In this document: positions 14,996 through 34,681 of the stretch, piece by piece
Position numbering within the stretch: position 1 is the stretch's first letter
How the letters are laid out: every line of letters begins with the position of its first letter
From: a bacterium
GTDB taxonomy: Bacteria > Zhuqueibacterota > Zhuqueibacteria > Residuimicrobiales > Oceaniaggregativiventaceae
Reading direction: 5' to 3'
Length of the DNA stretch: 64,000 nucleotides
Assembly (NCBI GenBank): GCA_029565675.1
Contig: JAKQNP010000014.1
Span: forward strand, 1-64,000
Notes under the pieces: generated by a model
The model's input: the letters and a program-made list of their open reading frames with translations, nothing else
The model's database searches: none
What the model was told of the DNA's origin: nothing
Made by a program: the position numbers and the translations under genes

Positions 14996-17900
14996 TCACT
15001 TGACCAGAATCATCTTTTGGCCGGCGCGAAAGCCGTTTTCCGTTTCCAGACGGCAGAAATAGACGCCGGAAGAGAGAGGCCGACCGTCGGTTGCGCTGGC
15101 ATTCCAGTTCACCTGATGGCTTCCGGCGGATTCGACGCCGTCCACCAGCACCTGCACCAACCGTCCCTGCATGTCATATACAGCAACTTTTATCCGACTT
15201 TGTTCGGGCAACGAGTAGGTGATGATGGTGCCGGCGTTGAATGGATTGGGATAATTGGCGTGCAAGGCGAATTCAGCGGGTTGGCTCGCCGCTTCGGGCT
15301 CGACCGCCAGATCGTAGTTGCCGCCGGTTACAAACCATTCCGGATAGCGCGCGCCGGTGGTGAGATTGAGAAGCGAAAAATTGAGCGAAGCGAGATCGAG
15401 AATCAGCAGTTTTTTATCGGAAAAGCGGTCGACGACGATCAGCTGGTCATCCGGAGAGAAGGACGGCCGCTCCACATCCCGGCCGGGAAACTGCAGAAAA
15501 AGATCCTGATCGACTTCAGCAAAATTGACGATATGGACATCCCAATACTCCGACTCGTCATCGATCATGCTGTAAGCGATGCGGTCGGGATCAGTGGAGC
15601 TGTACTGCACATTGCCGACGCTGATGCCGACAGGTTGAGCGGGCAACAGCGAGTAGATCTGCAGTTCATCGCCGGTGAAATCGATCTCCCCCATGCTCCA
15701 CCAATCGCGGACAGCCCCGGATGGCAGGGTCACCTGATTATACGCATCGAACGCCAGTTTGGGATATTTGGCATTGGGGGACCAATTGAGCACATCAGGA
15801 TATTGGATGGTCGAACTGCTGATGCCTTCCTGCGTGGAGGGCAAATCGAGCGTCAGATAATAAAGCTGGCCCGATATGAGCAGATAGATGTTGTTGTCAT
15901 TTTCATAACTGGAAGTAAAGGCAACGAACAGGCCGTCGCGCGAGATCGCGGCATTCCAGAGATCGCCGGGCGAATTGACATAGATATCGTCAAAGGTCTC
16001 AGTGGTTCCGGTCTGCATATTGGCTCGGGTAAAAACGCCGTTTTCGTCGATGAAATAGAGATAATTGCCGTCTGCAGTGGTGGAAAACTGGGTCCAATTG
16101 TAATCCTTGCTCTTGACGCGAACATTCAGAACATATTCTTTTTGGCTGTTCAAATCATAGAGCCCAACCCGCAGGTCATCGCGGACAAAAGCGATCCACT
16201 GGGTGCCGCCGGTGGTCGGCAAGACTTCATTATCACCGGCACCGCTGGGCGTCGTGCCGCCGCCACCACCGCTGCTGGTGGTGATTTTGACGGCATCGAA
16301 AGCAGATTTGACGGCCTCGAGTTCTGATCCGCTGCCGTACAGATCGATCGCGCATTGTTCGATCGCTTTGCGGGCGTCGATAAACTGCGATTGGCGCGTG
16401 AGATAAGAGCTCAGTGCCCGGTAGTAGATTTTTTCTGTTTTATCCTTGCCGATACGGTCTGCGATCAGGTAGGCGGCATAGCAGGGTATACCGCAATTGG
16501 TATGAACACCGCCGTAATCGCTGGAGGTATAGACATACTCGTCCATGGTCATGGGCAGCTGATCGAGCATGTTGCGGTTATGCGGATTGGATAGATCGCG
16601 CAGACCGCTGCCCATCCCGGGCAGCATGATGTCTTCGCCCATAATCCAATCATCGCGGTCGACCATGGCGCCAAAAAAATCGGAAAATGATTCATTAAGA
16701 GCGCCGGGTTGATCTTGATAAATCAGGTTGGCGGTGTATTCGGTGATCCCGTGGGTCAATTCGTGCGCGCAGATATCCAGCGCTTCGGCCAGAGACGAAA
16801 AGTAATCGCTGCCGTTGCCCCAGAAAATCGCTGAACCATTCCAGTAGGCATTGTCCATTGCCAGGCCACCTTCAGTCACATTGATCACTGTCATGATCGT
16901 CGATGCCCTTCCATCGATCGCCCGGCGGTTATGGGTGTTCTTGTAATAATTGTAAACGGTCGACAAATTGTGCATAGCCGAAACTGCAGCCCGATCGCCC
17001 CAGGAGGAGGGTGAAGTGGAAGTAACAAAGTAATATTGCGCCATTTCGGTGGGATCGTTGTTCTGCAAATCGATGACAAATAGACCGCCTGTCGGATCGT
17101 CGGGCAAATTTGCCGCGCCTCCCGAGAGCTCATTGAGATCGCTCAGCATATAATGGGTGCCGTCTTCCTCATAGGCGCGGAACGAGCGCGAGGAGCCGCT
17201 CAGGTCGATCCCTGAGGCATTGACGCTGCCTTCAGACATGGTGTTGCTGTATTTTTTCAGCACCTGTCCGGTTTCAATGTCGACCATAAGGGTAAACCAA
17301 TCGCGGACATTGGCGTAGAGTTCGACTTGCCAAACCAGATGGGGTCTATCCTGCTCGTCGATCCAGATCGTTTTCTTGCTGATCGGCTCGCTGAAACGAA
17401 GCAATTTGGTCATGTTCGCCGGAATGTCGTGCAGCAAATCGAGTTCAGCCAGATAGGCGCGGCAGACCTGCACAGCCTGATCGCTGTCGATTCCCTCTTT
17501 CCCGGGATCGATCCCGGCAGGCGTCGGCGCATAACGGCCATTCACCGTATAGACTTGATCGGTGGGGTCGATATGGACATAGAGCTCATTGGCCCATACC
17601 GGCACTCCCTGATAGGATTGCTGCAGGCGGAGATGGCGCATGCCCAGATCATCGGTCTCATGGCGAATCAGAGCAAATTCCGCCGCCGGCTGGTCGATTT
17701 TCATGGCTGCAGAAAAGGTCGAGAGCCAGCTCTGCGCCAACTGCAGATCGCGTTGAATCGGGCCATTTTCCGACACCGACTCCACCATCAAGGTTGAAAG
17801 TGGTACGGATTCAAGTTGGGCTGCACGGCCCAATTCGCCGCTGATAAAAAAGAGAGTGCCGTTTTCCGCCACCTGCACATCCCGCACCAACAGGCTTCGC

Positions 17901-31337: not shown

Positions 31338-32666
31338 CTATTCGATCATCGATGTTGCCAGCAAATGATTCGCCAACACGATGCCGATCGGCGCATTGGT
31401 CCAGCCGCTGTAGATGCTGCCGGCGCCGCCCTCGATGCGATCACCGCCGCCCCAGCTTCTGGTTTGCATGTTGTACATGCCGCGCCAGCAGCCGCGAAAA
31501 GCCAGAGAAGAACTTGTATCCTGGATGTCGATCACCAAATTCAGCAACTTTTGATAAGCCTCCTGAAATTGCGGCCGTTCGGAAACCGCCAGCAAATTCT
31601 GAAACGCGAGCAAACTCCAATTGACCGTATAAATCATGTCGACAAAATGGGGCCCGATCGGCGCCTCATAGTGTTCGGCGGGTATGTTGCCGTACACGGG
31701 ATCCATTTTGGCGACGAGACGATCGGCGAACGTTTCAGCGACCGTCAGGAAAAGCGTGTTTTTGGGAAAGACTTTGGCACAAGTCGATGCACCGATCACG
31801 GCATAGGCGCATTCACTGGCGTTGAAACGCTCGACGTTTTTTTCGAGATAGATATGATATCGTTGCACGACAGCCTCGACCGGAACATCTGTGAGCAGTC
31901 CGGCGCGCCAGGAAAATGCCAATGCCGCACAGGCAAGGGATCCCCAATGCGGCAGCCAGATGTTGCCCTGCCAGATCCCATGCGGATCAACACAATCGCC
32001 CTGGCCCTCTTTTCCCGCCAAAAGGGTGCGGTTAAAACCCTCGAAAAAGCAAAGGCTCAGCTGTTCGGCATAGTGACGCATGTTGAAGCGATGGGCGATT
32101 TCCGGAAATCGCTGTTCGATAATTAGGGGAACGATCAAATTCCACGAATGGTCGTCGAACCAGAGATAGAGATCCTTGCGAATATTCGACCAGTTCCAGG
32201 TTCCGACCAGAGTATCCGGATGCCAACGTGTCAACAAGGCGCTGCGGCAGTAGAGATATTCCAAAATATTTTCGGCAGTGGTCGATGGTTCCAGATCGAG
32301 TTCCCTGGCAAGCAGAAACAAGAGCGCGGTTTGAAAATTGCAGTCCGGCCGTCTCGCTTCGATCACGGTCCAGTCCTTGTAGTTTGTCCATGAATTGAAA
32401 GACTGCAAAAGAGCGGACAAGGATTCCTGGTCTGGCGGGACAAAAATCCGCTCTGCGACACCCCATCGCCCGTCATTCGGAAGCATGATGGATGAATTTT
32501 TGAACCAGGAGAGGTTATGCTGCAAGGCGGTGCGGGCGCGATCGGTTTGGTGAAGCGGGTGCATTGTTGATTCAGAACCATTCGACCGGCAGGCGAGCCA
32601 CAATGCAGCTGCGGCGCACAAGAAGAAGAGCATTCCTGACAGGCGGCGCGGGCAAGGATCGATCAT
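31338..32666 (-). CDS. Lipoprotein with (alpha/alpha)6 hairpin-type fold, probable glycan-active enzyme
   Basis: 442 residues. Lipobox LWLAC (Cys26). Repeating Trp-rich helical segments (RWHPDTLVGTWNWSNIRKDLYLWFDDHSWN, GNIWLPHWGSLACAALAFSWRAG, IYTVNWSLLAFQNLLA) and the ending GGGDRIEGGAGSIYSGWTNAPI are typical of six-hairpin glycosidase-like or heparinase-like toroids. Exact family not recognised. Same orientation as the lyase two genes on, so co-regulated glycan breakdown is possible. Confidence 0.68.
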   Translation of the reverse strand: MIDPCPRRLSGMLFFLCAAAALWLACRSNGSESTMHPLHQTDRARTALQHNLSWFKNSSIMLPNDGRWGVAERIFVPPDQESLSALLQSFNSWTNYKDWTVIEARRPDCNFQTALLFLLARELDLEPSTTAENILEYLYCRSALLTRWHPDTLVGTWNWSNIRKDLYLWFDDHSWNLIVPLIIEQRFPEIAHRFNMRHYAEQLSLCFFEGFNRTLLAGKEGQGDCVDPHGIWQGNIWLPHWGSLACAALAFSWRAGLLTDVPVEAVVQRYHIYLEKNVERFNASECAYAVIGASTCAKVFPKNTLFLTVAETFADRLVAKMDPVYGNIPAEHYEAPIGPHFVDMIYTVNWSLLAFQNLLAVSERPQFQEAYQKLLNLVIDIQDTSSSLAFRGCWRGMYNMQTRSWGGGDRIEGGAGSIYSGWTNAPIGIVLANHLLATSMIE

Positions 32667-33303: not shown

Positions 33304-33320
33304 AACTCGTTGTTTTTTAG

Positions 33321-33395
33321 TCGAGGCGGGGAGATTTGAACTCCCGACCCCTTGACCCCCAGTCAAGTGCGCTAACCGGACTGCGCTACGCCTCG
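33321..33395 (-). tRNA. tRNA-Pro (anticodon GGG)
   Basis: 75 nt folding as a standard cloverleaf: acceptor CGAGGCG/CGCCTCG, D arm GCGC..GCGC, anticodon stem CTTGA/TCAAG with loop CTGGGGG (anticodon GGG), T arm with GTTCAAATC, discriminator A. The 3' CCA is not encoded. Intrinsic terminators follow it; a tandem array of degenerate copies of its 5' half lies immediately upstream. Confidence 0.95.
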
Positions 33396-33410
33396 CGATT
33401 GATTTTTTTA

Positions 33411-33900
33411 TAAAGTCAATGAATTGACTTTATACGCCCCCAGTCAAGTGCGCTTGCGTGTTTGCTGCGCTGCGCACACGAGAGATGAGAGCATTCAAGT
33501 CAGCAAACTGACTTTATGTTACCCCAGTCAAGTGCGCTTGCGTGTTTGCTGCGCTGCGCACCCGAGAGATGAGAGCATTTTTTAAGTCAGCAAACTGACT
33601 TTATGTTACCCCAGTCAAGTGCGTTTGCGTGTTTGCTGCGCTGCGCACCCGAGAGATGAGAGCAGTTAAGTCAGTAAACTGACTTTATGTTCCACCAGTC
33701 AAGTGCGCTTGCGTGTTTGCTGCGCTGCGCACCCGAGAGATGAGAGCATTCAAGTCAGTAAACTGACTTTATGTTCCCCCAGTCAAGTGCGCTTGCGTGT
33801 TTGCTGCGCTGCGCACCCGAGAAATGAGAGCATTCAAGTCAGTAAACTGACTTTATATATCCCCAGTCAAGTGCGCCTGCGTGTTGCCTGTGCTGCGCAC
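33411..33900 (-). repeat. Tandem array of six tRNA-Pro 5'-half-like units with hairpins
   Basis: The anchor CCCCAGTCAAGTGCG recurs with its AGTC at 33442, 33526, 33613, 33697, 33781 and 33865 (period 84 bp, once 87). It is identical to the D-stem/anticodon-arm part of tRNA-Pro at 33357-33371. Each unit also keeps a D-arm-like GCAGCGCAG, diverges in the acceptor, and carries a perfect hairpin (AAGTCAG-N4-CTGACTT; first version TAAAGTCAAT-GA-ATTGACTTTA at 33411-33432). No unit contains the tRNA 3' half. The last copy is degraded. Lies on the 5' side of the tRNA gene. Confidence 0.85.
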
Positions 33901-34168
33901 CGAATCCGCGAAGATTGTTATAATTGGCCAACCATTGAAATTTATTTACCACCAAGCGAACAAGGAAAATTTATATAAATCATTTATTTTCTATTATTTG
34001 AGCTTTTTCCCTTTCGTGGTTTAGGAATAATTCAAGTGATGCATGTCAAATGTGCTGACCAACCAACACTTGCCTGCCATTCACAAGCCCGTAAATATAT
34101 ACAATCAGCAACAATTATGCAAGCACTTCGTTTCTGTGGCTGCCCTTTTTTTGCGGCATGGCTGGACC
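33901..34168. other. AT-rich gap beyond the tRNA array
   Basis: No gene or clear signal found. Confidence 0.4.
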
Positions 34169-34561
34169 CTAATCCTTGCTCGCTGTCTCGCCGGCCGTAG
34201 GCTGCTTGTCTTCCAAAAGATCGAGCAACTCCGTTAACAGCTGGCGCATGTCCTGCAACAGGTCGTCTTTTTTGACCTCCTCCAGCAAAAAATCCATCTG
34301 TTCGCCCTGCTGCCGCCGAAGCGCCCGCAGTTTTTGCCGCGCGCCTTCTATCGTATATTTGTCGTGGTATAGCAATTTCTTGATCAAAAAGATCGTGCGC
34401 ACATCCGATTTGCGGTAGGTACGGTTGCCGGCGCGATTTTTATCCGGATTCAATTCGGGAAATTCAGTCTCCCAATAGCGCAATACATAGGGCTTGAGCC
34501 CGGTGATCCGGCTCACTTCAGAAATCGAATAATAGAGCCTTTTGATTGCTCGTTGTTCCAT
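34169..34561 (-). CDS. MerR family transcriptional regulator
   Basis: 130 residues from the ATG at 34561, which has GAGG six bases upstream; ATG at 34612 would add 17 residues. N-terminal winged helix-turn-helix YYSISEVSRITGLKPYVLRYWETEFPEL is the MerR signature, followed by RAGNRTYRKSDV and a short coiled-coil dimerisation helix. No C-terminal metal- or drug-binding domain and no conserved Cys, so it belongs to the small HTH-only MerR group common near infB/pnp blocks. Last gene of the minus-strand block. Confidence 0.88.
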   Translation of the reverse strand: MEQRAIKRLYYSISEVSRITGLKPYVLRYWETEFPELNPDKNRAGNRTYRKSDVRTIFLIKKLLYHDKYTIEGARQKLRALRRQQGEQMDFLLEEVKKDDLLQDMRQLLTELLDLLEDKQPTAGETASKD

Positions 34562-34681
34562 GCGCACCTCGTCGCGATCGATATCCCCCTCGAAATTGAG
34601 AGTTAACTGCATCACTTAATGCAATACTTTACGCTAGTTTTGTTGCCGCTCACTCTTTATCGACGCCAGAGCGGTTGCCTG

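Follow-up and report, generated by a model that had tools for sequence, protein, structure and literature searches.

The window, a stretch of 64,000 bp, contains one intact tRNA-Pro(GGG) gene on the minus strand, identified by both ARAGORN and Rfam and apparently the sole gene of its kind. Read along the minus strand, a MerR gene is followed by a promoter, approximately 175 bp of further sequence in which no content could be recognised, six repeat units of 84-87 bp (u1 to u6) and, immediately downstream of these, the tRNA gene (Table 1). Tandem Repeats Finder placed the array at 33413-33901, with a period of 84, 5.8 copies and 91% matches. The six units that the earlier note had described upstream of an intact tRNA-Pro(GGG) are confirmed. 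Counted from the MerR side, the units are spaced by 84, 84, 84, 87 and 84 bp, and the tRNA's own 5' half comes 82 bp past the last unit, so that the tRNA forms a seventh copy in register.

Table 1. Features of the tRNA-Pro(GGG) locus, ordered from the tRNA gene towards the MerR gene.
Feature	Positions	Strand	Basis
tRNA-Pro(GGG), intact; in register as a seventh copy	33320..33395	-	ARAGORN; Rfam RF00005, 64.8 bits
26-bp perfect dyad TATAAAGTCAAT-GA-ATTGACTTTATA (written on the + strand), between u6 and the tRNA	33409..33434		sequence reading; fold
u6, unit closest to the tRNA; palindrome and spacer diverged	33394..33480	-	
u5	33481..33564	-	
u4, 87 bp, with a 3-bp insertion	33565..33651	-	
u3	33652..33735	-	
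u2	33736..33819	-	
u1, unit most distant from the tRNA; 5' half most diverged	33820..33903	-	
Rest of the inserted stretch, proposed remainder of an element	33904..34079	-	
Candidate decayed native tRNA-Pro 5' half	34036..34079	-	position-constrained test, post hoc
Ancestral tRNA-Pro promoter, TTGCAT-17-TATATT	34094..34122	-	homology to the G001 promoter
Regulator of the MerR family (PF13411), by synteny the gene upstream of tRNA-Pro across the class	34169..34615	-	

Each unit consists of a 43-nt piece resembling the tRNA 5' half (CGGGTGCGCAGCGCAGCAAACACGCAAGCGCACTTGACTGGGG) and approximately 41 nt that contain the palindrome AAGTCAG-TTTA-CTGACTT. Units and tRNA are identical over 15-18 nt, from tRNA positions 23/25 to 37/40, and the exact match extends to position 40, the 3' edge of the anticodon loop of 7 nt. 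The acceptor and D part is only similar to the tRNA, with 14 of 16 positions shared at the 5' end and a D loop that is 3-4 nt longer. The description of the units as 5' halves with a diverged acceptor therefore holds, the copies being exact over positions 23-40 and similar in the acceptor and D part. The whole unit matches the tRNA far better than expected by chance, with p = 0.02 for the D/acceptor part alone; chance resemblance was rejected because every one of the six units has the 15-18 nt match, next to the tRNA and in register with it. The shared sequence CCCCAGTC, which the earlier note had placed in every unit, is not present in its exact form in u3, owing to a G-to-T change. The tRNA 3' half is never copied, as had been stated, and its other matches throughout the genome are to other tRNA-Pro genes only.

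The hairpin reported for each unit is present, with arms of 7 bp (AAGTCAG/CTGACTT), alternatively read as AAGTCAGT-TT-ACTGACTT; the arms range from 7 to 12 bp over the units, and the copy adjoining the tRNA has perfect 12-bp arms. Each unit has three TGACT half-sites, whose orientation alternates, and TTGACT is shared by the anticodon stem and the palindrome arm. Units u2-u5 are nearly identical, differing at 2-8 columns, and the greatest divergence is seen in the end units, u1 and the 3' part of u6. Head-to-tail copies of high mutual identity, varied by substitutions and an indel, are characteristic of a minisatellite-type tandem array. A protein-coding repeat was rejected, since there is no continuous frame; the 28-residue repeat ORF noted earlier is indeed accidental, although it does not run through the array, being broken by stops in u3 and in u4, where the 3-bp insertion creates a TAA. 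An 18-bp tandem repeat of two copies was also observed elsewhere in the window (31578-31614), within a gene for 442 amino acids without a Pfam match. Repeats tend to collapse or expand in assembly, and the array comes from a single draft genome of 64 contigs, but the distinct substitutions and the indel among the units, the divergence of both ends and the position within an 88.8-kb contig make an assembly artefact extremely unlikely.

The array was found nowhere else. It is absent from the rest of its own genome, from 59 relatives searched at the DNA level, including G001 of the same genus, from an order-wide search by unit sequence, and, as a structure, from 61 relatives searched with a covariance model. 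Two motif patterns yielded no array in 63 genomes of the class, and IMG/VR contained none. By blastn, the array had no match among plasmids and only one among phages (E 0.8, located in the array). A GTDB-wide pattern scan gave one match, in Candidatus Rifleibacterium and within a coding gene, where about one was expected by chance. A dispersed repeat family was rejected, there being no further copy in the genome or in the 61 relatives. A literature search for tandem arrays of tRNA fragments likewise found none. The comparison with related genomes proposed earlier thus returned the array in no relative, and it is limited to one genome. The class-wide search found in G010 a single intergenic GTTAGCGCACTTGACTGGGGTTAAGG, part of the tRNA-Pro anticodon arm but distant from any tRNA gene (G010:C29:51266-51281, L047), which is possibly a secondary attachment site or a relic.

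A functional leader or small-RNA array would be transcribed from the old promoter described below, which is directed into the array, and the transcripts would regulate the tRNA or be processed together with it, as an attenuator, a decoy or a tRNA-half-like RNA. Each unit folds as two hairpins, better than shuffled sequences (z -2.4 to -3.7), the whole leader reaches a z of -8.9, and one compensatory change, from a G-C to an A-U pair, is seen in the palindrome among the six units. However, palindromic DNA folds well without any RNA function. Neither a known family nor covariation, either of which would mark a structured RNA or a leader attenuator, was found: the units have no match in Rfam, their covariation is within the range of shuffles (90/500), and the structure is absent from the 61 relatives, its presence in one genome only making an argument from conservation unusable. 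The roles suggested in the earlier note, as tRNA-half RNA, attenuator or decoy, are therefore left without positive support, with no Rfam match, no relative and a single compensatory pair. These results give no support to a leader or small-RNA role, which we regard as conceivable but improbable.

Most relatives have polysaccharide deacetylase, MerR and tRNA-Pro in this order, the last two separated by a few to approximately 100 bases. G001 has a promoter, TTGCAT-17-TATATT, 14 nt 5' of the tRNA. A homologous promoter is retained in the window behind MerR (none of 5000 shuffles reached its score), and therefore approximately 684 bp came between promoter and tRNA, the original promoter now lying about 700 bp 5' of the tRNA. 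Directly before the tRNA no clear sigma-70 promoter was found; a possible -10 element, TATAAA, lies 11 nt 5' of the tRNA, inside part of the 33409-33434 dyad. Beside the old promoter, AGCACATTTGAC at 34056-34045 agrees with AGCGCACTTGAC at 10 of 12 positions and lies 37 nt after the old -10 element, as compared to 36 nt in G001. This likeness is suggestive of a decayed native tRNA-Pro 5' half, with p of 0.004-0.009 in a position-constrained, post hoc test and p of 0.2, not significant, in free local alignment, and the native fragment is thus a candidate only. The remaining inserted sequence, 33904-34079, has no match in the own genome, in plasmids or in phages.

A gene of approximately 360 codons has likewise come to lie between MerR and tRNA-Pro in G003, a member of the same family (L072/L073, G003:C233 and C154), and therefore the gap is insertion-prone. 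One and the same stretch reaching from MerR into the tRNA-Pro 5' half has two continuations (G039:C55:25774-25872 at the end of L040, and the start of L061): one contig runs on into the tRNA, the other into foreign sequence after CTGGGGGTCAA. The difference may reflect variation between strains at a site of integration.

Within the class, tRNA-Pro(GGG) is a hot spot for islands of the usual 3'-fragment kind. Copies of the 3' half with a boundary in the anticodon arm were found in G002, G007, G014, G026, G031 (two, in tandem) and G043, and the copy in G007 adjoins an integrase gene (PF00589, 3e-21). The two 3' halves in G031 lie 24 kb apart on one contig (L036 and L037; G031:C358:7661 and 31806) and are tandem islands accreted at one tRNA. 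In the own genome, outside the window, a tyrosine integrase gene was observed just downstream of tRNA-Pro(UGG) (G000:C39:14086-14571 and 15149-15225, L118).

A second route was seen in IMG/VR, where eight contigs (L093-L100) contain a tRNA-Pro(GGG) 5' half that ends after CTGGGGG, at the same base as the array units. A tyrosine integrase gene lies directly beyond the 5' half in at least seven of the eight; one of these integrases was tested (PF00589, 3e-31), and the five that were compared share 41-67% identity and form one family (for example L094:11141-12295 and L096:12055-13170). Both ends are present in the proviruses G064 (IMGVR_UViG_3300031110_000342) and G065 (2915646033_000006), where an intact tRNA-Pro follows the displaced 5' fragment at a distance of 43.7 and 44.0 kb. 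The two ends share a direct repeat of 80-84 bp, composed of an approximately 41-bp promoter-like upstream segment and the 5' half ending in CTGGGGG, which matches the 84-bp unit of the window (approximately 41 bp and 43 bp, respectively) in composition and length. Thus, tRNA-Pro(GGG) is targeted by tyrosine-integrase elements of two types, the 3'-fragment type in the class and the 5'-fragment type in proviruses that probably belong to other bacteria. In the latter, the element supplies a promoter-like segment together with a new 5' half of the tRNA, displacing the old promoter and the old 5' half in the upstream direction.

This 5'-half route, taken by the provirus integrase family, is rare but real, in agreement with surveys. 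The Islander survey recorded 5' tDNA fragments in 159 of 3919 islands, and 2083 as anticodon-centred (PMC4383910), and pTN3-like archaeal integrases use the 5' half as attachment site attB and have the tRNA re-expressed from their own promoter (PMC8371274). The earlier argument that an integrase attachment site is unlikely because the 3' half is uncopied is consequently wrong, given these documented islands and the 5' halves of the proviruses.

We consider it moderately probable that the array is the relic of such a 5'-fragment, anticodon-centred attachment site, whose copies then multiplied in tandem through slippage or unequal crossing-over. In polarity and cut point the locus corresponds to a 5'-fragment island, because the promoter is displaced, the 5' halves lie upstream of an intact tRNA in the same orientation and they end at the loop edge, in the overlap region of the anticodon loop and at the same base as in the eight proviruses. 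The block of identity over positions 23-40 is sharply bounded, the remainder of the 5' half having diverged, as expected for an attachment-site core. The displaced promoter, the candidate decayed 5' half at its expected place and the repeated islands of the class at tRNA-Pro(GGG) also speak for this origin, as does the absence of the array from G001 and from all other relatives examined.

An element would have integrated at the tRNA-Pro anticodon, as the anatomy and the proviruses suggest. Its body, including the integrase gene, would then have been lost, leaving two direct repeats of the 5' half around approximately 41 bp with the palindrome. Slippage or unequal crossing-over between these repeats, possibly aided by the hairpins, would finally have yielded six 84-bp units. 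Tandem amplification is supported because the inner units are near-identical and the end units diverged, and the earlier suggestion of replication-slippage debris is probably right for the multiplication of the copies. The tRNA is maintained by selection and would be transcribed either from the old promoter through the array or from the weak TATAAA nearby, the units probably being passive.

Several observations speak against the relic. The insert of approximately 684 bp contains no integrase or other element gene, and the locus is therefore at most a relic and not an intact member of the 5'-fragment islands. The distance of approximately 175 bp from u1 to the old promoter calls for two or more events, or for a remnant in between. 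A search of 63 genomes of the class at 1e-50, made without a positive control, yielded no member of the provirus integrase family; the genome itself has seven tyrosine recombinases, only about 25-34% identical to the provirus integrases and none of them at the array locus. In addition, the sequence following CTGGGG in the units is unlike that of the proviruses, the tRNA is not preceded by a clear sigma-70 promoter, and the decayed 5' half is a post hoc finding that loses significance without the position constraint.

The main rival, which we regard as possible though rather unlikely, is a plain tandem duplication, in which palindrome, spacer and 5' half were copied through a template switch, either at the hairpin or at the anticodon stem, and then expanded as a minisatellite without any integrase. 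The absence of element genes would then be expected, and so would the homogeneous inner units, the register of the tRNA with the array (82 versus 84 bp) and the microhomology provided by TTGACT in anticodon stem and palindrome arm. However, the array begins with a 5' half in u1 and not with a palindrome, the approximately 175 bp between u1 and the old promoter are additional inserted DNA, and the identity is confined to the att-like core in copies that have otherwise diverged from the tRNA.

A protein-binding or recombination array in present use, with the palindromes and TTGACT half-sites binding an integrase or MerR as a landing or decoy site, would make sense of the three alternating TGACT half-sites per unit and of the adjoining MerR gene. 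We consider it very unlikely, as the relatives examined, G001 among them, lack the palindrome in the gap that separates MerR from tRNA-Pro, and as the search of the class, which had no positive control, yielded no integrase of the 5'-fragment family. We regard it as improbable that the array, as a chromosomal tandem series of tRNA anticodon half-sites, is maintained for a function, for example by offering anticodon-targeting integrases several sites for landing or as decoys, or by controlling tRNA-Pro through serial hairpins in a leader once the promoter had been displaced.

Compared with known systems, the relic reading places the array closest to the A-type islands of Islander (PMC4383910), which likewise have 5' fragments that lie upstream of an intact tRNA and end at the anticodon loop, and a displaced promoter. 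It differs from them in having neither integrase nor cargo, in measuring approximately 0.7 kb as compared to more than 2 kb, and in containing six tandem fragments and not one. With G064 and G065 it shares the tRNA, the cut base and the direct repeats of 80-84 bp, made of upstream segment and 5' half, with the intact tRNA downstream; in the proviruses the repeats are 44 kb apart with phage genes and an integrase gene between them, and the sequences flanking the core differ. Tandem repeats that contain a piece of the adjoining tRNA are also found as the rtT repeats downstream of E. coli tyrT, where it is the tRNA 3' end that is copied, downstream of the gene, as opposed to the 5' half and the upstream side here. 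The pTN3-like integrases resemble the proposed element in using a tRNA 5' half as attachment site and in the re-expression of the tRNA from an element promoter, but they are archaeal, the T. nautili case concerns tRNA-Leu, and the available part of the paper describes no tandem array (PMC8371274).

Based on this analysis, the observation itself is real and the exotic readings of the array are unsupported; most likely, a mobile element once inserted at the tRNA anticodon, and the array is its scar, since multiplied, rather than a regulatory RNA of a new kind. The duplication of an anticodon attachment site as a 5' fragment is already known, and what is new here is its tandem, orphan form. The locus suggests that a tandem array can be seeded by duplication of an attachment site within a tRNA gene and come to part an apparently sole tRNA-Pro(GGG) from its promoter, and the provirus integrase family at tRNA-Pro(GGG) provides a handle on how elements give an essential tRNA a new promoter.
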